Source: a virus. Taken from it: a stretch of DNA of 40,650 nt. The notes under the pieces were generated by a model. The model was given only the letters and a program-made list of their open reading frames with translations, was not told the origin of the DNA and made no database searches. The stretch is from IMG/VR virus record IMGVR_UViG_3300020175_000015, positions 1 to 40,650 of that record; one strand, given 5' to 3'. Shown here one piece after another: positions 8,224 through 24,519 of the stretch. Each line of letters opens with the position of its first letter. Position 1 is the stretch's first letter. The translations under genes and the position numbers were made by a program.

Positions 8224-10320
8224 TCATTCACTCCAATCTAATACTGTGAAACTACTTGTGGATGAACCATCGAATGTTAATTGTAGTGATGGCTCTGTGG
8301 ATGGTGCTGATGCTGTAGCTATGCCAGTATCCGTTAGATCATCTGACCACACTCTGAACTTACCTATTGTACCCATGAAGTAATAGCCTAACTTTAGGTC
8401 TGTTGCTGACAAGTCAGGAAGAGCTATAGGTGTTGTGTTAGCTGTCAGTGCTGTACCATCTATAGCACCATTGATGAACGTAGAGCCGTGTCGTGATGCT
8501 ATGTTGAAGGGGACGTTGATACCGGAAGAGTAAACGTTTGCATTTGTTGAAACATCATCCACGACGCCCCCTGCGTATTGTCTAAAACCAACCCAGCTAT
8601 TTCTGGACGTTAGGGTGGAGTTTGAGGCGTCGATGCCGCCTGAAGTGTCAATACGCCACTGGAAGAACCTAGGGTTTGTGCTAATTGAATCGTCATCAGC
8701 ATATGTCATCCTGCCGTCCATCTGTATTGACATATTAGTAGAGCTATATGGTAGATTAGCTGATGGTACTGTTAGTGTCTCAGCCGCCCTTGTTACAGTT
8801 GATCCTGATGTTGGGATGTAGCTTGATGGGGTTGAGCCTTGTTCAAACTGAGTGCCATAGAGGTAAATGCCAGAAGTTCCGTCATTAGGGCTGTCTGGTA
8901 ATCTACTAGAAACATCAGTGTCGTACACAGCAACAAAGAATGGATTACCAGTAGTGCTTTGAGAGGCTACAGCAGTTAAAGTTATTCTATACCAACCATT
9001 ACCTACTGGTGTTACTATAACACCTATGTTGCTATTACCAAGACTACCATTAGAAAGATTGACGTTAGCAAATGTAGCCGCAAACCTTGGAGAAGAACCT
9101 CCTATTTGAAGCCAACTATACTCGCCAGCCTTGGCATAAATTGAACCTGTGTAAGTTGTTCCACTAGTAATTGAAATACTAGGAAAAGTAACTCCTGCCC
9201 AACCACCAGACTGCGGTATTATAAGAGTTGCATCTGTAGCACCTGACGGGCTGGTAGTGTTGTTTGCTGATATAACTGCTCTAGTCTTAAGCCACTCAGC
9301 ATTAGCAAAATCATTCGAATAAGTAACCAAATTGGTCCTAGCTTCACTCTCATGGAGTACGCCTTCGTTTGCCCAAGCATCACCATTGTAAATGTGGTGG
9401 CCTACTCTTGGTAGGTAAACAGCAGAACTTGTTGTTGGGACGTAGCTATCACCACGGTCAGGGTTGTTGACCATGCCGCCAAGGTCACTTCGGAATAAGT
9501 GTGCGCCCCAGATGTAAAGACTATCACCAGAAGCCCCAGATGCACCATCAGATGCTACAGGAAAAATAGAAAATCTATTATTAGTTAAATTAGATGTTAC
9601 TACACAACGATACCACCCGTTTCCTACAGATTCTATAGAAGCAGTATGATTAGAGCTAGATGTACCTACTGAACCTGCGCCTGATAAATTAAAAAATGTA
9701 TCTTCACCACTTGCAGTTCGTAATTTTAGATAACTTGTGCTAAAGGCTTTAGCAAAAATTGACCAAGTGTGACTACCAGATGCGGAAATTGCCTTATATA
9801 CTGCTCCACCTGATCCTTGGCTAACTACACTATAGGCAGAGTTAGTTCCGTCAGGTGCTGTAGTAACATTAGAGGTTACTGTGGTAAGATATTTTAACCA
9901 AACAGAATTAGAAAAATCCTCAGAGTAAGGCAGTAGGTTATGCGGACGCCACTTAATGTTACCATCACTGTCTGTCATGGTTGCATTGCTAGAGGCACTG
10001 TGAGTTACAGCAGGGTTAAGGTTTGACTTGACACCTGCAGCTCTGTAGTACTCATTGATAAAATCTAAAGAGTAGGCTGGTTGTTTTGTCAGGACACCAT
10101 AATCTAAAGCTACAAACGAAGCTGAACTATTACGTAAGTCTCTCATAGCCTCATAGAAACTACCGTACTCTGACACCAAGAACTTGTGTATTCTATCTGT
10201 CAAGGAACCTGTATGGGTTAGATCACCCATAGCCTTGTAATGCATATCGTTCAGTGAACCAGTATAACCTTGGCTCCTGAAGTATTGAAAGTCTTCATCT
10301 GCTGTAGGGAAAAATAACAA
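8224..10320 (-). CDS. Large tail-fibre protein with two lectin-like modules
   Basis: 698 residues. Residues 1-100 form a distinct N-terminal domain, probably the attachment to the tail or adaptor. Two related modules follow, one ending DSLYIWGAHLF then SYVPTTSSAV, the other ending SGIYLYGTQFEQG then SYIPTSGSTVTRAAE. A C-terminal beta-sandwich follows. The frame has no suitable ATG: the start is taken as the TTG at 10320-10318, with AGAGGA 12 bases upstream. It overlaps the next adhesin gene's leader. It is the best candidate for the main host-range determinant. Confidence 0.7.
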   Translation of the reverse strand: MLFFPTADEDFQYFRSQGYTGSLNDMHYKAMGDLTHTGSLTDRIHKFLVSEYGSFYEAMRDLRNSSASFVALDYGVLTKQPAYSLDFINEYYRAAGVKSNLNPAVTHSASSNATMTDSDGNIKWRPHNLLPYSEDFSNSVWLKYLTTVTSNVTTAPDGTNSAYSVVSQGSGGAVYKAISASGSHTWSIFAKAFSTSYLKLRTASGEDTFFNLSGAGSVGTSSSNHTASIESVGNGWYRCVVTSNLTNNRFSIFPVASDGASGASGDSLYIWGAHLFRSDLGGMVNNPDRGDSYVPTTSSAVYLPRVGHHIYNGDAWANEGVLHESEARTNLVTYSNDFANAEWLKTRAVISANNTTSPSGATDATLIIPQSGGWAGVTFPSISITSGTTYTGSIYAKAGEYSWLQIGGSSPRFAATFANVNLSNGSLGNSNIGVIVTPVGNGWYRITLTAVASQSTTGNPFFVAVYDTDVSSRLPDSPNDGTSGIYLYGTQFEQGSTPSSYIPTSGSTVTRAAETLTVPSANLPYSSTNMSIQMDGRMTYADDDSISTNPRFFQWRIDTSGGIDASNSTLTSRNSWVGFRQYAGGVVDDVSTNANVYSSGINVPFNIASRHGSTFINGAIDGTALTANTTPIALPDLSATDLKLGYYFMGTIGKFRVWSDDLTDTGIATASAPSTEPSLQLTFDGSSTSSFTVLDWSE

Positions 10321-10425: not shown

Positions 10426-10956
10426 TTAATTGGCTCTTGTTAAGCCTAGTCGTTTAGCATCATCTGATAACAATGACAAAGCTTCTTTATTCATGTCTTC
10501 TTCTTCTTTAGCCTTGAGTTTCTTCTTGGCTACTGTAGCTGCTTCCTTGTCTAACCAACCCTTATCTAGTAATAGCTTGGCTGCACTAAAGGAACTTCTA
10601 CCTTTTGTCTTCATCTCTTCAGCTATAGCTTTGATAGCTTCTGACTTGACCTTAACCTCTACTTCTTTTCTCCATCTTAATATGTGGACCTTAACGCCTG
10701 ATGCATTGGACACTTTCTGCCATATATCCCAGGAACCAAAGACTGTCAGAGCAAACTCGTATTCTGTTGGATCAGCTGGAGCCATCTGTAGGTATAGCTT
10801 CTGTAATGACAAGTACATCTTGCCGTGAGCCTCTAGGTCTCTGTCCTTGAGAGTAAACACAGCATCCTCTGTATCTGAGTAGCATAACTCATAGAATAGG
10901 CTTTTTGTTTTTGTCTTACCGTTAGAGCCTTTGAAGTTTTCGTACTGGAACATCAT
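10426..10956 (-). CDS. terS: Putative terminase small subunit
   Basis: 176 residues, first gene after the leftward promoter. It opens with two adjacent ATGs. The N-terminal part (KSLFYELCYSDTEDAVFTLK) and PTEYEFALTVFGSW match the kind of protein annotated as small terminase or DNA-maturation subunit in marine T7-like phages. The rest is Lys/Glu-rich helix (90-176). Small subunits recognise concatemer DNA and regulate TerL. The assignment rests on remembered family resemblance and position; TerL itself lies about 5 kb downstream, beyond the fibre genes. Confidence 0.6.
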   Translation of the reverse strand: MMFQYENFKGSNGKTKTKSLFYELCYSDTEDAVFTLKDRDLEAHGKMYLSLQKLYLQMAPADPTEYEFALTVFGSWDIWQKVSNASGVKVHILRWRKEVEVKVKSEAIKAIAEEMKTKGRSSFSAAKLLLDKGWLDKEAATVAKKKLKAKEEEDMNKEALSLLSDDAKRLGLTRAN

Positions 10957-10997: not shown

Positions 10998-11027
10998 AGT
11001 ATACCACAGGTGTGATATATATGTCAA
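10998..11027 (-). promoter_or_regulatory. Leftward sigma-70 promoter for the terS/late operon
   Basis: On the minus strand TTGACA (11027-11022) is followed after 18 bases by TATACT (11003-10998), with an extended -10 TGG just before it. The predicted start site near 10991 lies 35 bases upstream of the putative terS gene. All six -35 bases and five of six -10 bases match the consensus. The late genes from 10956 to 31 have no other convincing promoter in front. Confidence 0.65.
11001..11018. promoter_or_regulatory. Operator-like palindrome in the leftward promoter spacer
   Basis: ATACCACAGGTGTGATAT is an inverted repeat with CACA-GG-TGTG at its core and matching ATA/TAT ends (one mismatch per arm besides the centre). 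It sits between the -35 and -10 boxes, where a bound protein would block or remodel the promoter. No repressor gene is recognised here, so the regulator would be an unrecognised phage protein or a host factor. Confidence 0.35.
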
Positions 11028-11076: not shown

Positions 11077-11105
11077 TTGACACAAGTGCAAATAGGGTGT
11101 ATAAT
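11077..11105 (+). promoter_or_regulatory. Perfect-consensus rightward sigma-70 promoter
   Basis: TTGACA (11077-11082), a 17-base spacer and TATAAT (11100-11105) match the consensus at every position. The preceding 40 bases are almost pure A/T, like an UP element. Predicted start is near 11112. The first gene is 640 bases away, and a strong terminator intervenes at 11283-11320. Confidence 0.85.
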
Positions 11106-11111
11106 TTCATT

Positions 11112-11320
11112 ACTAGCCGCCAGGCGGTATAAGTATATATACTATAGCTATACCAAGGTATAATCCATTACTCTAATGTTTATCTAAGCTTGGTAGTCTA
11201 CGCAAGGTACTTACCGTAGAGCTTAGGGACACGTCCAGATTCTACTGTAAGCACCCACCACCCACAAGATTATTACATGCAGCCCACCACTGGTTAACTC
11301 CTTTGGTGGGTTTCTTTTTT
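11112..11320 (+). ncRNA. Candidate ~205-nt structured RNA or antitermination leader
   Basis: The interval lies between a perfect promoter and a strong terminator and holds no open frame longer than a few codons. Paired segments are visible: CTAAGC (11184-11189) with GCTTAG (11221-11226), and inside it TCTACG (11197-11202) with CGTAGA (11215-11220) around a 12-nt loop, giving a stacked hairpin with a 7-nt one-sided bulge. The 5' end contains several short palindromes (11117-11162). I recognise no tRNA, 6S or tmRNA signature. It could be a regulatory RNA or a put-like leader that lets polymerase read through the terminator. Confidence 0.45.
11283..11320 (+). terminator. Rho-independent terminator upstream of the early operon
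   Basis: CCCACCA (11283-11289) pairs perfectly with TGGTGGG (11304-11310) around a 14-nt loop, followed immediately by a ten-base tract that is T except for one C. It ends transcripts from the perfect promoter about 205 nt after their start, unless antitermination occurs. Confidence 0.85.
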
Positions 11321-11431
11321 GGAGAAGGCGTAGTCTTTGACCACTTGGCATGCTCAAGAAAATCCTTAGAAAATGTTTTGGTGTAATGTACATATAGAAG
11401 GATACCCCGCAGCCCCCCATGTCGATACCCT

Positions 11432-11515
11432 AGTGTTGCATAAATGTTACACCCCAGGTAGTTGCAAAAGTATCACACTGTGGCAAATCCATCGCAGTGT
11501 TGCAGGAATGACACA
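11432..11515 (+). repeat. Three iteron-like TTGCA motifs, candidate origin
   Basis: Three related ~20-base motifs share GT(G)TTGCA, then two variable bases, A-x-T, and ACAC or ACA. Their TTGCA cores are at 11436, 11462 and 11500. The first and third are the closest pair (AGTGTTGCA, then AATG, then ACA). They are followed by a strongly AT-rich block at about 11631-11720. Repeated sites beside an AT-rich block in the divergent region resemble a replication origin or a cluster of regulator sites. This is an inference; the motifs are degenerate. Confidence 0.3.
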
Positions 11516-11630
11516 GGGGTGCTTTAAGATTGTCAGGGCAATAATACCTAAGCAATATCAAATGAATTAAACCTTTGTTATCCATTGCAATTCCATGGAT
11601 CATCCAAACAGATTGACACAATGAGACACG

Positions 11631-11690
11631 TTCATTTTATCCATATATTATATAGTATGAAATTAATTATCATTTATTTTATTTTATGTA
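11631..11690. other. AT-rich block, possible unwinding element
   Basis: Almost uninterrupted A/T with only a handful of G or C bases, between the iteron-like motifs and the second rightward promoter. It contains no gene. Such stretches melt easily and are common at origins and promoters. Confidence 0.35.
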
Positions 11691-11720
11691 TTGACATATT
11701 GAAAAGCTTACAATTATAAA
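11691..11720 (+). promoter_or_regulatory. Rightward sigma-70 promoter for the early genes
   Basis: TTGACA (11691-11696), an 18-base spacer and TATAAA (11715-11720). A 17-base spacing with TTATAA also fits. The predicted start near 11727 is about 30 bases before the first early gene, which has its own AAGGAA ribosome site. A weaker TTGACA at 11613 lacks a good -10. Confidence 0.7.
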
Positions 11721-11755: not shown

Positions 11756-11977
11756 ATGTTATTAGATAGACAGAAACAAACTTTATTTGTCACATCGGAC
11801 AACTACCCGTTTTATTTACAATTAGATGGGACATTAACAGATACACCTGATAAAAACGATTGTAGTATGACCTACGAAGGCCTAACGCAACTCTTTGAAG
11901 CCGACCCTGATACAAGAATAGGTTTTGAAGCTGATCGTGTACACTTTAAAAAAGCATTGGAGAATTCAACATGGTAG
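11756..11977 (+). CDS. Small early protein, unknown function
   Basis: 73 residues, first gene of the rightward arm, 35 bases after a good sigma-70 promoter and preceded by AAGGAATTAATTAA. Acidic, soluble, with no recognised domain. Its end overlaps the next gene by 7 bases. First early genes of T7-like phages commonly counter host functions, but nothing in the sequence shows a target. Confidence 0.6.
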   Translation: MLLDRQKQTLFVTSDNYPFYLQLDGTLTDTPDKNDCSMTYEGLTQLFEADPDTRIGFEADRVHFKKALENSTW

Positions 11978-15694: not shown

Positions 15695-17325
15695 GCAATT
15701 GGTTAAGCCACAAAGAATGTCCATACGAGGACTGCGGAAGCACCGATGCCTTCAGCTACAACTTAGAGAGTTGTTCTGGCAGGTGTCATAGCTGCGAAAG
15801 GGTGTACCCTAGAACAAAGGACACCAAGTTTGAATGGGCATCAGAAACATACCCTGTCATGGGGCAAGAACAAGAGAAAGATGATTGGGATATGAACCAA
15901 CAGCAACAAACAAACATTAAGCCAGTGCCTACAGAGGTACTGACACCTGTCTATAGGACTGTCAGGTCTATCAGTGAGCAAACCATGAGGTACTATGGTG
16001 TCAAGACTTACTTAGATAGCAATGGCAAAGAGGTTAAGCAGGAATACCCATACCCATCAGGAGGTATCAAGACTAGGTTTTTCCCTAAAGAATTTAGAGC
16101 TACCAACCTAAAGTCAGATGAGCTATTCGGTATGAACCTATGGAATGCAGGGTCAGGTAAGATCGTAACTGTAACAGAGGGTGAGCTAGATGCTATGTCA
16201 GCCTACCAGATGTGTAACTCAGAGAAGTATTCATCTGCCTTTGTGTCACTACCATCAGCCACCCCAAGTAATAAGCTATGGACTAAGGCAGCAGATTGGT
16301 TAGGATCATTCAGTAAGATCATACTGTCAATAGAACATGATGAACAAGGCAATGCTGTAGCTCAACGCATAGCTAACCTATACCCTAACAAAGTTTACAG
16401 GGTACAGCATGACAAATACAAGGATGCTAATGAATTCCTTGAAGCAGGGGCACGTAAAGAATTCTACAATGCATGGTTTAATGCTAAGAAGTATACACCT
16501 GAGAACATAATCAATACATCAGATCAGTTCCTTAAGATGTACAACACGAGTGAGAGCCATGTGTATGTAGAGACTGGCGTCCAGGAGTTTGATGACCTAT
16601 GTATGGGGCTTATGCAGGGCCACTTCACATTGTTTAAGGCTCAGACTGGTATAGGTAAGACAGAATTCATGAGATACCTAGAGTATCACATACTAACGAA
16701 GCATCCTGAGATAAGCATTGCAGCATGGCACATGGAAGAGACAAAGCTAAGATCAATACTTGGCTTGGTGTCATACGAATTGAAACAGAACCTGACACGT
16801 AAGGATTTAATAGCACAAGATAGTGCAGAACAAAGGGTACAAGATGCTATCGTTAAGCTAACCAAAGATGAGAGGCTGTATCAATTCTTTTTGAATGATG
16901 AGGATGATCCCCTTGACATACTAGGACATATACGTTACCTGTCTCAGGCTTGTGGTGTTCAGTACATATTCTTTGAACCTATACAGGACATAGCAGCCAA
17001 CATGGGTGGCGATGAAAGCAAAGAACAATTCCTTGCTGATTTATCTGTCAGATTATCTAAGCTAGCTGCTGAATTAGGTGTTGGCATTGTAACAATCGGA
17101 CATACAAATGATGATGGTGCTGTTAAGTACTGCCGTATGATAGAACAAAGAGCATCTGTTGTTGTAGAATTACAAAGAGATAAGATGTCAGAGGATATTG
17201 ACGAAAGGAATACAACTAAGTTGTTAGTCACAAAGAATAGACCAGTTGGTCCAACAGGATACGCAGGTCAACTTAAATTTAACACAGATAGCTTTACCCT
17301 ATCAGAAAAATATGGTGAGTATTGA
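15691..17325 (+). CDS. T7 gp4-like DNA primase-helicase
   Basis: 544 residues from the ATGA-coupled start at 15691. Zinc ribbon with Cys10, 15, 32 and 35; Toprim primase core with VTEGELDA (161-168) and IEHDEQG (214-220); DnaB-type helicase with Walker A AQTGIGKT (317-324), WHMEET (346-351), a Walker B-like strand ending FFEP (427-430) and TIGHTND (468-474). It unwinds DNA and lays primers for the phage polymerase. Two positions depart from T7: Glu replaces the first Asp of the Toprim DxD motif, and Glu429 replaces the Walker B Asp. These may be family traits. Confidence 0.92.
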   Translation: MSNWLSHKECPYEDCGSTDAFSYNLESCSGRCHSCERVYPRTKDTKFEWASETYPVMGQEQEKDDWDMNQQQQTNIKPVPTEVLTPVYRTVRSISEQTMRYYGVKTYLDSNGKEVKQEYPYPSGGIKTRFFPKEFRATNLKSDELFGMNLWNAGSGKIVTVTEGELDAMSAYQMCNSEKYSSAFVSLPSATPSNKLWTKAADWLGSFSKIILSIEHDEQGNAVAQRIANLYPNKVYRVQHDKYKDANEFLEAGARKEFYNAWFNAKKYTPENIINTSDQFLKMYNTSESHVYVETGVQEFDDLCMGLMQGHFTLFKAQTGIGKTEFMRYLEYHILTKHPEISIAAWHMEETKLRSILGLVSYELKQNLTRKDLIAQDSAEQRVQDAIVKLTKDERLYQFFLNDEDDPLDILGHIRYLSQACGVQYIFFEPIQDIAANMGGDESKEQFLADLSVRLSKLAAELGVGIVTIGHTNDDGAVKYCRMIEQRASVVVELQRDKMSEDIDERNTTKLLVTKNRPVGPTGYAGQLKFNTDSFTLSEKYGEY

Positions 17326-17537
17326 TGGAACAACTACTAGAGTATGATCCGTTAGTTTATACAGCAGCAGGGATATATTTCTTGGGTGTTGTCAATCACT
17401 ACGTCTTGATGAACACCATACACATCATACTTAAAGCACCAAGGGATGTTAACTCTATGAAGTTTAGGGCTGTTGTATGGCCTTATGAGTTAGGTTTAAG
17501 TTTATGGATGACGTTTATAGATAGAGGTGACGAATGA
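17325..17537 (+). CDS. Small membrane-associated protein between helicase and polymerase
   Basis: 70 residues. The ATG at 17325 shares one base with the helicase stop (TGATG). One hydrophobic stretch at about residues 12-32, and a second amphipathic one near 50-63, suggest membrane association. It lies between two replisome genes and is coupled to both (ATGA with the polymerase). It may tether replication proteins to the membrane, which is speculation from position and hydrophobicity. Confidence 0.55.
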   Translation: MEQLLEYDPLVYTAAGIYFLGVVNHYVLMNTIHIILKAPRDVNSMKFRAVVWPYELGLSLWMTFIDRGDE

Positions 17538-18430
17538 GTATACTAGCAATGGACATAGAGACAGATGCATTAGATGCTACCAAGATACATGTGATCTGTG
17601 CTCAAGATGTTGACACAAAAGAGAAGTACCAGTTCCTTAACGTGTGTACCATACCAGAAGAAGCTAAGGCATTCATTAAGTTATGTAATGAAACAGATAA
17701 GTTTGTCTTTCACAATGGGATAGGGTTCGATGTTAAAGTTATCAATCGTTTGGTACAACACGACCTGATTAATCCATCTGATGTTATAGATACTCTCATC
17801 ATGTCACGTCTGATAGACTACAGCATCAAAGGTGGTCACAGTTTAAAGGCATGGGGTCAAAGGTTAGGTGAGTTTAAGATTGGCTTCGATCAGTTCGAGG
17901 TGCTTACCCAAGAGATGATTGATTATTGTCATCAGGATGTTGAGGTTACAGTTAGATTATACAATAAGTTTAAAGCTACAATCTTTGACCCTGATCTACA
18001 GGATGCTATCAAATGTGAGCATGACATACAGATTTTATGTGAGGAGATGACAGCAGCAGGGTTCTACTTCGAGAAAGATAAGGCTGACCACCTGTTAGAT
18101 GAGGTTGAGTTGCGTATGGCAGAGCTAACAGACAGCTTCCAACGTGACTTCCCACCACAGCTAGAGGAAGTTAACAGGATTAAGTACAGAAAGAAACAGG
18201 ATGGTACTGTCATGGCAAGTGTAAAGAAAGCACAAGAGAAATACTTTAAGACAACTGTCGATTGGTCTGTCAATCCACCTGACTTAGTGTGCTACGATTG
18301 GATAGAGTTTAATCCAGCATCACCTAAGATGAGAATAGAAAGACTATGGGATGCAGGGTGGCAGCCATACGAGAAAACAAAGGGACACATACAGTATGAT
18401 AGAGAACAAAAGCAAAGATCGTGGAGATAA
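17534..18430 (+). CDS. DNA polymerase I family, N-terminal part (3'-5' exonuclease), frameshifted
   Basis: 298 residues. DnaQ-type proofreading domain with DIET (7-10), HNGIGFD (60-66) and YCHQDVEVT (131-139), then the start of the T7-like polymerase domain (ILCEEMTAAGFYF, FNPASPKM, GWQPYEKTKG). The conserved polymerase sequence then leaves the frame near residue 294 and continues in the +1 frame (see 18351-19427). Removing one A from the A-runs at 18408-18411 or 18414-18416 restores a single polypeptide of about 630 residues. The start overlaps the previous stop (ATGA). A real split gene, programmed frameshift or sequence error are all possible. Confidence 0.88.
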   Translation: MSILAMDIETDALDATKIHVICAQDVDTKEKYQFLNVCTIPEEAKAFIKLCNETDKFVFHNGIGFDVKVINRLVQHDLINPSDVIDTLIMSRLIDYSIKGGHSLKAWGQRLGEFKIGFDQFEVLTQEMIDYCHQDVEVTVRLYNKFKATIFDPDLQDAIKCEHDIQILCEEMTAAGFYFEKDKADHLLDEVELRMAELTDSFQRDFPPQLEEVNRIKYRKKQDGTVMASVKKAQEKYFKTTVDWSVNPPDLVCYDWIEFNPASPKMRIERLWDAGWQPYEKTKGHIQYDREQKQRSWR

Positions 18431-19427
18431 GTTTGCTCGGTATGGGTGGACGTTATCCGAGGCTAACCTTGAGACACTACCTGATGATGCACCTCCTGGT
18501 GGTAAACGATTGGCTGAGTGGTTGACACTAGAGGGTAGACGATCATCACTGGTAGAATGGTTAGGTCACTGTGGTGATGACAACAGAATACATGGTAGGT
18601 TCTTACACCTTGGTGCATGGACAGGACGTATGGCACACATGGCTCCTAACCAAGCTAACATACCATCAGAGTTTCATGGTACACCTAAGTCAGCAGTCGA
18701 AGAGGTGAAGCATAGGTATGACGGACAGTTTAGAGCCTTGTGGAGTGTCGAGAAGGGTAACTATCTAGTGGGTACAGATGCTGAAGGGATACAGCTGCGA
18801 GTTCTTGCCCATCTAATGAAGTCAGAGGAGTATGTAGATGCTATTGTGTCAGGTAAGAAAGAGAATGAGACTGACATACACAACCTGAATAAGAAAGCAC
18901 TGGGCATGTCACACATAACAAGAGATGATGCCAAGACTTTCATCTATGCATTCCTACTAGGGGCAGGGACAGGTAAGATAGCCCAGATACTACGTGTCAA
19001 TCAACGTGAGGCTAGTCAATGTGTCGAGAACTTTATGCAATCAATACAAGGACTTGCAAACCTAAAGAAGAAAGTGATACCACACATAGCTAAACGAGGC
19101 TGGTTCAAGGGTATGGATGGACGTAAGGTTCTAGTACCATCAGAACATAAGACACTAGCAGGTATGCTACAGAATGGTGAGTCTGTCATCATGAAACACT
19201 CAGCACTGCAATGGGTAAGTCAAGCTAAGGACATAGGCATAGACTTTAAGCTTGTCACATGGCCTCATGACGAATGGCAGACTGAGGTGTGTGGTAATTA
19301 TGCAACAGCTGAAGAGTTGGGTGCATTACAACGTCAATCTTTCGTTGACATCGGAGAGAAATTCAATATGGTCTGTCCGTTAGCAGGTTCGACAGACATC
19401 GGACGTAACTGGAGAGACACTCACTAA
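18351..19427 (+). CDS. DNA polymerase I family, C-terminal polymerase part, frameshifted
   Basis: Carries the catalytic polymerase core: TGRMAHMAPNQANIPS, motif A GTDAEGIQLRVLAHL, motif B RDDAKTFIYAFLLGAG, and motif C PHDEWQTE. Residues encoded from about 18417 are the true continuation of the upstream part; earlier codons of this frame are out-of-frame shadow. If the split is real, an ATG at 18396 could restart translation 32 bases before the upstream stop. In motif B the residue equal to T7 Tyr526 (E. coli 762) is Tyr, but the one equal to T7 Tyr530 is Leu. The enzyme replicates the genome with the helicase and SSB. Confidence 0.88.
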   Translation: MQGGSHTRKQRDTYSMIENKSKDRGDKFARYGWTLSEANLETLPDDAPPGGKRLAEWLTLEGRRSSLVEWLGHCGDDNRIHGRFLHLGAWTGRMAHMAPNQANIPSEFHGTPKSAVEEVKHRYDGQFRALWSVEKGNYLVGTDAEGIQLRVLAHLMKSEEYVDAIVSGKKENETDIHNLNKKALGMSHITRDDAKTFIYAFLLGAGTGKIAQILRVNQREASQCVENFMQSIQGLANLKKKVIPHIAKRGWFKGMDGRKVLVPSEHKTLAGMLQNGESVIMKHSALQWVSQAKDIGIDFKLVTWPHDEWQTEVCGNYATAEELGALQRQSFVDIGEKFNMVCPLAGSTDIGRNWRDTH

Positions 19428-20056: not shown

Positions 20057-20842
20057 ATGATAATAGCATGGTGGTCAGCAGGTGTAACCAGTGCAGTAGC
20101 TACAAAGTTAGCAATAGATGAGTACGGAAAAGATAATGTAGTACCTATTTACTTTGCAATAGATTCTTCTCACGAAGATAATAAAAGATTTAAAGAGCAA
20201 TGTGAGGAATGGTATGGTAAAGAGATACAGGTTGAACGAGCACCTGAAAAGTACAAAGATCAATTTGATGTGATCCTAAAAGATAAGTACGTTAATGGAC
20301 CTGGTGGTGCTAGGTGTACGTTAGTTCTAAAGAAGAGAGTTAGACAAAGACTTGAGAAAACTTTATCTTATGATGGTCAGGTGTTTGGCTTTGAGTATTC
20401 AAAGAAAGAAATCAATAGGGCTATAAGGTTTAGAGAACAGTACCCAGATGCTAAACCTTTGTTCCCTTTAATACAAAACAAAATGAGTAAAGAAGAAAGT
20501 TTGTTTTATTTAGAGAAGCAGGGTATTGAGAGACCTACGATGTATCACTTAGGCTATGGCAACAACAACTGTATAGGTTGTGTCAAAGGTGGTATGGGTT
20601 ATTGGAATAAGATAAGAGTAGACTTCCCTGAAACCTTTGATCGTATGGCTAAAGCTGAGAGAGAAGTAGGCAACAGCTGCATTAGACATACATTCTTAGA
20701 TGAACTTGATCCAGAGGCAGGACGTAAACAAAAGTTTATTATGCCTGACTGCGGTAACTTCTGCGACATAGAGTTTTCTGATGTACTTCACCCAAGACTA
20801 GAAGAAGTATACAGGAAACCAGTCCAATTAAAATTAATATAA
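20057..20842 (+). CDS. PP-loop / PAPS reductase-like ATPase with Cys cluster
   Basis: 261 residues. An N-terminal WSAGVTSA (6-13) is a variant PP-loop of the adenine-nucleotide alpha-hydrolase fold, followed by a strand and helix pattern and GGARCTLVLKK (84-93). Cys87, Cys172, Cys175, Cys208, Cys232 and Cys236 could hold an iron-sulfur cluster or metal. Relatives activate sulfate or add sulfur to tRNA or DNA (PAPS reductase, TtcA, DndC). Which applies here is not shown; the gene neighbourhood (exonuclease, endonuclease) does not decide. It lies just after a terminator, with AAAGGA 11 bases before its ATG. Confidence 0.7.
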   Translation: MIIAWWSAGVTSAVATKLAIDEYGKDNVVPIYFAIDSSHEDNKRFKEQCEEWYGKEIQVERAPEKYKDQFDVILKDKYVNGPGGARCTLVLKKRVRQRLEKTLSYDGQVFGFEYSKKEINRAIRFREQYPDAKPLFPLIQNKMSKEESLFYLEKQGIERPTMYHLGYGNNNCIGCVKGGMGYWNKIRVDFPETFDRMAKAEREVGNSCIRHTFLDELDPEAGRKQKFIMPDCGNFCDIEFSDVLHPRLEEVYRKPVQLKLI

Positions 20843-22624: not shown

Positions 22625-24519
22625 GCAACAATTACTTACCAACAGACTACCAATCATTTATACATAAGTCACGTTATGCTAAGTACCTTGAGGGTAAAGG
22701 ACGTGAGTCTTGGAGTGAGACTATAGACAGGTACATGAAGAATGTTGTAGGTGATTTAGTTGATATTGTAACTAAGAAAGAACTAGAGAAAGCTATCCTA
22801 GACTTAGGTGTCATGCCTAGTATGAGGTCACTCATGACAGCAGGTAAGGCTGCAGATCGTGACAATGTTTGTATGTATAACTGTAGCTACTTAGCTGTTG
22901 ATGATGTCAAAGCATTTGATGAAGCTATGTTTATCCTGTTGTGTGGTACTGGTGTAGGGTTCTCAGTTGAACGTCAGTCAGTACAGAAGCTACCTGAAGT
23001 ACCTGAGTTGTTTGACAGTGAGACTAACATCGTAGTCAAGGACAGCAAAGAGGGTTGGGCTAAAGCTTTACGTCAGTTGATTGCATTACTTTATAGTGGT
23101 GAGATACCAACATGGGATGTATCTAAGGTACGTCCAGCAGGTGCAGCTCTCAAGACATTCGGTGGTAGAGCATCAGGTCCTGCACCTCTGGTTGATCTGT
23201 TTAACTTTACCATTGATGTATTCAAAGGCGCACAGAATCGTAAGCTGTCATCCATAGAGTGTCATGACATCATGTGTATGATAGGACAAATCGTTGTGGT
23301 TGGTGGTGTACGTAGATCAGCTATGATCTCTTTGAGTAACTTATCAGATGACAGAATGCGTCATGCTAAGTCAGGCTCATGGTGGGAGAACGATCCACAA
23401 CGTGCTCTAGCTAACAACTCTGTGTCATACACTGAGAAGCCTGACAGTCTATCCTTCATGAGAGAGTGGATGTCTCTTGTTGAGTCAGGGTCAGGAGAAC
23501 GAGGTATCTTCAACAGACAGGCATCTAAGGTACAAGCTGCTAAGAATGGTAGACGTGATGCTGACAGAGAGTTTGGGACCAACCCTTGCAGTGAGATCAT
23601 ACTTAGGCCAGCACAGTTCTGTAACTTAACTGAGGTTGTAGTACGAGCAACAGATAACATTGACACACTGTCTGAGAAGGTACGTCTGGCTACAATCTTA
23701 GGTACTATCCAATCTACATACACTAAGTTCCCTTACCTTCGTAAGATCTGGAAAGATAATACAGAAGAGGAAAGACTGTTGGGTGTGTCACTAACAGGAG
23801 TCATGGATAATCCGTTGATGACCCTGAAGAACAAAGGTTTAGATAAGACACTTGCTCACCTAAAGAAAGTTGCTGTAGATACAAATGCTGAGTGGGCTGA
23901 CCGTCTAGGTATACCAGTATCAACTGCTATAACTTGCAATAAACCTAGTGGTACTGTGTCACAGCTTGTAGATAGTTCTAGTGGGATACATGCTAGACAC
24001 TCTAAGTACTACATCAGGACTGTACGAGGTGACAACAAAGATCCACTGACACAGTTCATGATTGACCAGGGTATACCTAACGAACCTGAAGCATTCAGAC
24101 CTGATCTGACTACAGTGTTTAGTTTCCCTATGAAGGCTCCTACAAATGCTGTAGTTACAGCCGACATGACAGCCATAGAACAACTAGAGATGTGGTTAGC
24201 TTACCAACGTCACTGGTGTGAACACAAACCATCTGTTACTATTAATGTTAAAGGTGACGAATGGTTTGAGGTAGGTGCATTTGTATACAAACACTTTGAT
24301 GAGATGAGTGGTGTGTCATTCTTACCGTTCAACGAACACACATACCAACAAGCACCCTACCAAGAGTGTGACAAAAACAGTTACCTATGGATGTTAGGTA
24401 AGATGCCTAACAGAATTGATTGGTCTAAGGTATCTGAGTATGAGAGTGAAGACAATACATCAGGTAGTCAGACTTTAGCTTGCAGTGGTGACAGTTGTGA
24501 GTTAGTAGACTTAGTTTAA
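22621..24519 (+). CDS. nrdJ: Class II (adenosylcobalamin-dependent) ribonucleoside-triphosphate reductase
   Basis: 632 residues, monomeric type as in Lactobacillus. Key residues visible: Cys88 in YNCSY, the NPCSEI motif with radical Cys323 and Glu325, Cys334 in FCNL as partner of Cys88, and the C-terminal CSGDSC pair (Cys621, Cys626) that re-reduces the active site. It converts NTPs to dNTPs using vitamin B12, which the host must make or import. No oxygen-dependent subunit is needed. The start overlaps the DUF1127 stop (ATGA). This gene type marks the B12-dependent roseophages such as SIO1. Confidence 0.93.
   Translation: MSNNYLPTDYQSFIHKSRYAKYLEGKGRESWSETIDRYMKNVVGDLVDIVTKKELEKAILDLGVMPSMRSLMTAGKAADRDNVCMYNCSYLAVDDVKAFDEAMFILLCGTGVGFSVERQSVQKLPEVPELFDSETNIVVKDSKEGWAKALRQLIALLYSGEIPTWDVSKVRPAGAALKTFGGRASGPAPLVDLFNFTIDVFKGAQNRKLSSIECHDIMCMIGQIVVVGGVRRSAMISLSNLSDDRMRHAKSGSWWENDPQRALANNSVSYTEKPDSLSFMREWMSLVESGSGERGIFNRQASKVQAAKNGRRDADREFGTNPCSEIILRPAQFCNLTEVVVRATDNIDTLSEKVRLATILGTIQSTYTKFPYLRKIWKDNTEEERLLGVSLTGVMDNPLMTLKNKGLDKTLAHLKKVAVDTNAEWADRLGIPVSTAITCNKPSGTVSQLVDSSSGIHARHSKYYIRTVRGDNKDPLTQFMIDQGIPNEPEAFRPDLTTVFSFPMKAPTNAVVTADMTAIEQLEMWLAYQRHWCEHKPSVTINVKGDEWFEVGAFVYKHFDEMSGVSFLPFNEHTYQQAPYQECDKNSYLWMLGKMPNRIDWSKVSEYESEDNTSGSQTLACSGDSCELVDLV

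Follow-up and report, generated by a model that had tools for sequence, protein, structure and literature searches.

At positions 11077-11320 of the window (the whole 40,650-base stretch of viral DNA analyzed here), a promoter and a terminator enclose an interval without a gene. The question was what is made there, and to what end. An earlier note on this DNA had offered two readings: an abundant small RNA acting on the host, or a leader that, like the put RNAs of HK022, makes polymerase resist termination. An abundant small RNA, which would probably act on the host, was found to fit best, and the leader was disfavored. Cobavirus papers and records, which cover the group to which the window belongs, annotate proteins and repeats only; termini, terminators, and proteins are covered in the papers that were consulted, and no such RNA was found in them. 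The RNA could show how phages lacking a polymerase steer that of the host or, alternatively, what use virulent marine phages make of regulatory RNA. Since carriers are in culture (CRP-5 on FZCC0040 and ICBM2 on Lentibacter SH36), expression, target, and role are directly testable.

The phage and its right genome end

The window was assigned to the cobaviruses (Zobellviridae, Cobavirinae) by protein families, nearest records, and opposed gene arms. The closest named phages were Roseobacter phage CRP-5 and Lentibacter phage ICBM2. The Cobavirinae traits found were a cobalamin-dependent ribonucleotide reductase (a family hit), two opposed arms, a T7-like direct terminal repeat (DTR) motif, and a terminase and portal in common with relatives. 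Cobaviruses have no RNA polymerase of their own (PMC6775973, PMC6918029) and are reported to be among the most abundant marine phage groups (PMC6918029). Both ends of the contig fall within the late operon; thus, compared with the virion genome, the window is circularly permuted. The features of the locus were as follows.

10998-11027, minus strand: divergent promoter of the late operon, TTGACA-18-TATACT (11/12 match, TG before the -10 element)
11077-11105, plus strand: consensus sigma-70 promoter, TTGACA-17-TATAAT (12/12 match)
11110-11320, plus strand: predicted noncoding RNA (predicted start 11109-11112, about 209-210 nt)
11116-11128, plus strand: 5'-terminal hairpin GCCGC-CAG-GCGGU (arms 11116-11120/11124-11128), its pairing kept while its sequence changes
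11151-11195, plus strand: probable internal stem, UACCAAG (11151-11157) with CUUGGUA (11189-11195), from comparison by hand and more weakly supported
11227-11245, plus strand: conserved motif GGACACGTCCAGATTCTAC, upstream of the terminator
11281-11320, plus strand: intrinsic terminator with U-tract, CCCACCA..TGGTGGG followed by TTTCTTTTTT
11385-11545, no strand: direct terminal repeat of the linear genome, its start (about 11385-11388) placed by homology and its far end approximate
11691-11720, plus strand: likely early promoter, TTGACA-18-TATAAA, read from the sequence on the left-end side of the DTR

The genome end was located by comparison. ICBM2 has 159-base direct terminal repeats, known from long-read sequencing (PMC6775973). 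They are annotated at 40749-40907 and 1-159 and begin with ATTGTACATACAG, a motif that the window repeats at 11385. In IMGVR_3300046167_000087, which is a closer relative, an exact 145-bp repeat with the same start motif occupies both contig ends; the promoter and terminator of this relative are located immediately inward of the right repeat copy. Given this homology and the end repeats of the relative, the RNA unit was judged to be the final gene before the right end of the linear genome, adjoining the cobavirus packaging site. The promoter is about 310 bases inward of the right DTR, and the terminator ends about 65 bases before it.

The right genome end (i.e. the DTR start) separates the unit from the early genes, whose frames start at 11756 and continue onward. 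On the infecting linear molecule, those genes are at the left end, about 40 kb from the RNA unit. The earlier note's placement of the early genes beyond the terminator is thus correct for the permuted contig, for concatemers, and for a circularized form, but not for the linear genome. In one relative (L034), the DTR motif is separated from the terminator by a gene-sized insert (HNH-like by eye) that lies upstream of the phrog_8035 gene; in three others (L028-L030), the promoter is farther from the neighboring gene, by about 350 bases. These two arrangements indicate that the unit is coherent as a module, and the insert in L034 that it is separable from the genome end.

Conservation of the promoter and the transcribed sequence

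The promoter at 11077-11105 was the sole 12/12 match to TTGACA-17-TATAAT in 40,650 bases, compared to 0.03 expected from shuffles, and the perfect sigma-70 promoter of the earlier note was thereby borne out. When relatives were anchored on the neighboring gene, the perfect promoter was present in 35 of the 39 tested; a wider search found it in 32 of 49 loci. Combined, the two sets (which overlap by a few contigs) give about 67 of 88 related loci, all of these with the 17-base spacer. Most loci retrieved by the DTR motif alone also had the perfect promoter, and a gene-free stretch and then a terminator followed in most perfect-promoter loci that were read through. A predicted RNA gene, previously unannotated, is thus carried by the window phage and most of its relatives. 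The leftward promoter at 10998-11027 stands back-to-back with it, and the late operon behind that promoter starts at the gene 10426-10956. A CRP-4-like group (L192, L193, L221, L222, and CRP-4 itself, L127) has TTGACA-17-TACCCT in place of the perfect promoter; the TACCCT at -10 suggests a different sigma factor or an activator in this subgroup.

No frame of 12 codons or more was found on the plus strand of the transcript, in agreement with the gene-free interval first described. Coding on the reverse strand was considered and rejected, as a 65-codon ORF at 11223-11420 is broken by stops in relatives; no conserved open frame was found in the interval among relatives. Across 10 close relatives, 4 of 106 sites varied in the RNA body (11106-11211), 25 of 49 in the adjacent spacer, and 17 of 32 in the linker before the terminator. 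The neighboring gene had 23, 15, and 81 variable sites at first, second, and third codon positions, respectively (176 of each). The predicted RNA is under stronger constraint than the adjoining protein gene. Because its body varies less than both the spacer and the codon positions, the sequence of the product appears to matter, not transcription alone.

Between lineages, the picture changes: the length of the RNA ranges from about 110 to 290 nt, and length and middle differ greatly. The middle could not be aligned across lineages by MAFFT, and the 5' hairpin, the internal stem, and the 3' module were therefore analyzed separately. The RNA of L016 looks recombinant, with a 5' end like that of L013 and a middle like that of the window. 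Searches of Rfam gave no match at the gathering level, and relaxing E to 5 brought up just one irrelevant lncRNA; there was no match to known 6S families. The region had no DNA similarity to phage records. A host-derived RNA was also considered and rejected, no related sequence being found among 289 alphaproteobacterial genomes in a search run without a positive control.

Structure and distribution of the unit

For the 5' hairpin, sequences were aligned by hand on predicted loops, a procedure that leans towards structure; 91% of cells were paired in this alignment, compared to 62% in shuffled ones (0/10,000 shuffles). Because of this leaning, an alignment-free z-score test was added. Across lineages too divergent to be aligned, represented by 21 sequences of which a few are related, the first ca. 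26 bases gave a combined z of -8.2; deeper into the RNA, the signal was weak or absent. The arms differ elsewhere, as in GUAUCGCU/AGCGGUAC (L018), AUCAUCCC/GGGGUGAU (L024), and CCCCUC/GAGGGG (L191). The probable internal stem (11151-11157/11189-11195) encloses a small hairpin (11166-11170/11174-11178). Compared by hand, it was found in the same place in L008, L013, and L018, and with arms that differ yet pair in L022, L025, and L026. The minimum free energy of the window's RNA body was not better than that of shuffled sequences; consequently, the claim of structure rests on comparison.

Owing to a loop longer than 8, the terminator escaped a consensus scan, but it is clear by eye, and the “textbook” description originally given to it proved apt. 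In 14 aligned sequences, 7 of its 10 pairs had changed on both sides; 94% of cells were paired, compared to 78% when shuffled. The compensating changes on which the earlier note had proposed to judge the transcript were thus present in the 5' hairpin and the terminator, but not in the stems that it had named. Its stacked hairpin (11184-11189 with 11221-11226, enclosing 11197-11202 with 11215-11220) is a possible fold of the window sequence; however, a comparison of seven distinct close relatives revealed no compensation, and two inner pairs were broken in five of the seven.

Upstream of the terminator, GACA..T.CAGAT was invariant in 12 lineages and occurs once in the window. A covariance model of the 3' module (R1) recovered L020 and L024, neither of which was used in building it. 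CRP-5, a training sequence, was matched with E 4e-15. ICBM2 was not found by this model; its unit consists of the promoter and terminator without a recognizable motif. Weak matches (E 0.009-0.03) were obtained in P12053L (17145-17208) and SIO1 (23858-23916), near the gene-arm junction where a bidirectional terminator has been described, and probably reflect a shared terminator shape only. At 11624-11633, about 238 bases past the start of the DTR, AGACACGTTC nearly repeats the RNA motif GGACACGTYC; close relatives of the window retain it (L012 has GGACACGTTC). The motif and its near copy are perhaps a shared binding site.

The unit was absent from the right ends of the Siovirus members ICBM1 (L129), P12053L (L130), and SIO1 (L131), which retain the DTR start motif and have a terminase that is 68% identical. 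At these ends, a perfect late promoter (TTGACA-17-TATAAT) points leftward, and a rightward RNA promoter is lacking. No such unit was found at the right ends of RIO-1 and the Methylophilales phages (MEP401/402), and no clear promoter at that of ICP2. An unannotated positional analogue precedes the right terminal repeat of VpV262 (NC_003907, L166), a Vibrio phage distantly related within the family: a promoter (TTGACA-18-CATAAT) at 45546, a structured gene-free stretch of about 160 bases, a terminator at 45715-45741, and the DTR at 45874. This analogue, from one genome, hints at an older feature.

Possible roles of the RNA

The locus has the makings of a small-RNA gene, i.e. its own promoter, no coding frame, and an intrinsic terminator with a U-tract. 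A separate promoter and an intrinsic terminator are the usual layout of such genes, and small RNAs of the Hfq type usually end in a U-tailed terminator. A strong conserved promoter, a very conserved noncoding body, a structured 5' end, and a conserved terminator are, taken together, best fitted by the small-RNA reading. On balance, and with moderate confidence, the locus is taken to be a stand-alone noncoding RNA gene from which host RNA polymerase would produce an abundant, trans-acting small RNA. It is probably among the most highly transcribed cobavirus genes, and its product probably serves to manipulate the infected cell.

In the mechanism that we infer from these features, host RNA polymerase would start at the consensus sigma-70 promoter, transcribe about 210 bases, and halt at the intrinsic terminator; the 5' hairpin should shield the RNA from decay. 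The RNA would act in trans as an abundant species, with the conserved middle and the GACA..T.CAGAT motif as its active parts; these would either base-pair with mRNAs of the host (or phage) or attach to a host protein. Synthesis would follow entry of the right end into the cell, at about the time that the late promoter opposite becomes available. The variation in length and middle between lineages would be unusual for a target-bound RNA unless the targets change with the host, and fast change in the middle would fit such shifting host targets. Predicted pairing with phage start regions was no better than that of shuffled RNA. Against the small-RNA reading stands Siovirus (ICBM1, P12053L, SIO1), which lives without the unit; moreover, the constant position beside the DTR and the VpV262 analogue leave room for a role in cis. 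The nearest known systems in role are PreS of lambda and VpdS of VP882, phage-encoded Hfq-type small RNAs that act on host or phage RNAs and favor phage replication (PMC12197685). Those RNAs come from temperate phages, whereas no integrase was seen in this cobavirus group, in which the RNA gene is kept beside the DTR behind an almost invariant promoter.

A broader reading, rather unlikely, is that those Zobellviridae that rely on host RNA polymerase share a “right-end RNA” with its gene at the right DTR, and that its product or its transcription has a task at the genome end, in packaging, in concatemer cutting, or in the switch to late expression. It would be either a host-polymerase counterpart of the T7 promoter phiOR or a pRNA-like component that evolved independently.

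The narrower proposal, in which the unit is the counterpart of phiOR and the concatemer-junction pause and the RNA a by-product, is unlikely. Polymerase stopped before the repeat would aid replication restart, concatemer cutting, or packaging. As in T7, a right-end promoter is directed into a T7-like DTR; the terminator falls just short of that repeat, and VpV262 has promoter, 160 nt, terminator, and DTR in the equivalent place. However, the cobavirus promoter is a sigma-70 consensus rather than a phage RNA polymerase promoter, and its unit has a terminator before the repeat and a strongly conserved RNA body. Since this body is more conserved than the second codon positions of the neighboring gene, transcription alone is not a sufficient explanation. 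The terminator-to-DTR distance also varies and is split by the insert in L034, and Siovirus has the DTR start motif and the terminase yet lacks the unit. Nothing usable was found in the literature on T7 concatemer pausing or cobavirus transcriptomes.

Quite unlikely, too, is a decoy or inhibitor whose structure, rather than base pairing, would attach it to a host protein (polymerase, Hfq, a nuclease, or a defense protein). The conservation of the 5' hairpin and GACA..T.CAGAT alongside a middle that evolves fast between lineages would suit it, but no known protein-binding RNA family was recognized.

An RNA that joins the portal/terminase machine, in the manner of phi29 pRNA, is improbable. Both are structured RNAs of similar size whose genes lie at a genome end and are (in the cobaviruses, by prediction) transcribed towards it from a host-type promoter by host polymerase. 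The absence of an Rfam match and the very variable length tell against a packaging RNA, and phi29 has protein-capped ends, whereas cobaviruses package from concatemers with DTRs. Siovirus packages with its similar terminase and no such RNA, which makes this role unlikely.

A put-like cis leader that modifies polymerase for terminator read-through into the early genes is scarcely credible: HK022 put RNAs act in cis on downstream genes whose terminators are read through, and although a structured region at the transcript start is common to both and early genes do follow in concatemers or a circularized form, the cobavirus terminator is conserved by compensating changes (the opposite of what such a leader needs), the infecting linear genome ends without a further gene, the stems first proposed are not conserved, and a separate early promoter candidate lies beyond the DTR.

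Elsewhere in the window, the DNA polymerase is split over two overlapping frames (17534-18430 and 18351-19427) that match successive parts of one family; the CRP-5 annotation likewise has two DNA polymerase genes. A tRNA-SeC call by ARAGORN at 9124-9213 falls within a long minus-strand tail-protein frame and is probably a false positive. The replication arm carries a PAPS-reductase-like gene at 20057-20842, and the nearest bacterial relatives found for it were about 54% identical, mostly from Bacteroidetes and Firmicutes.
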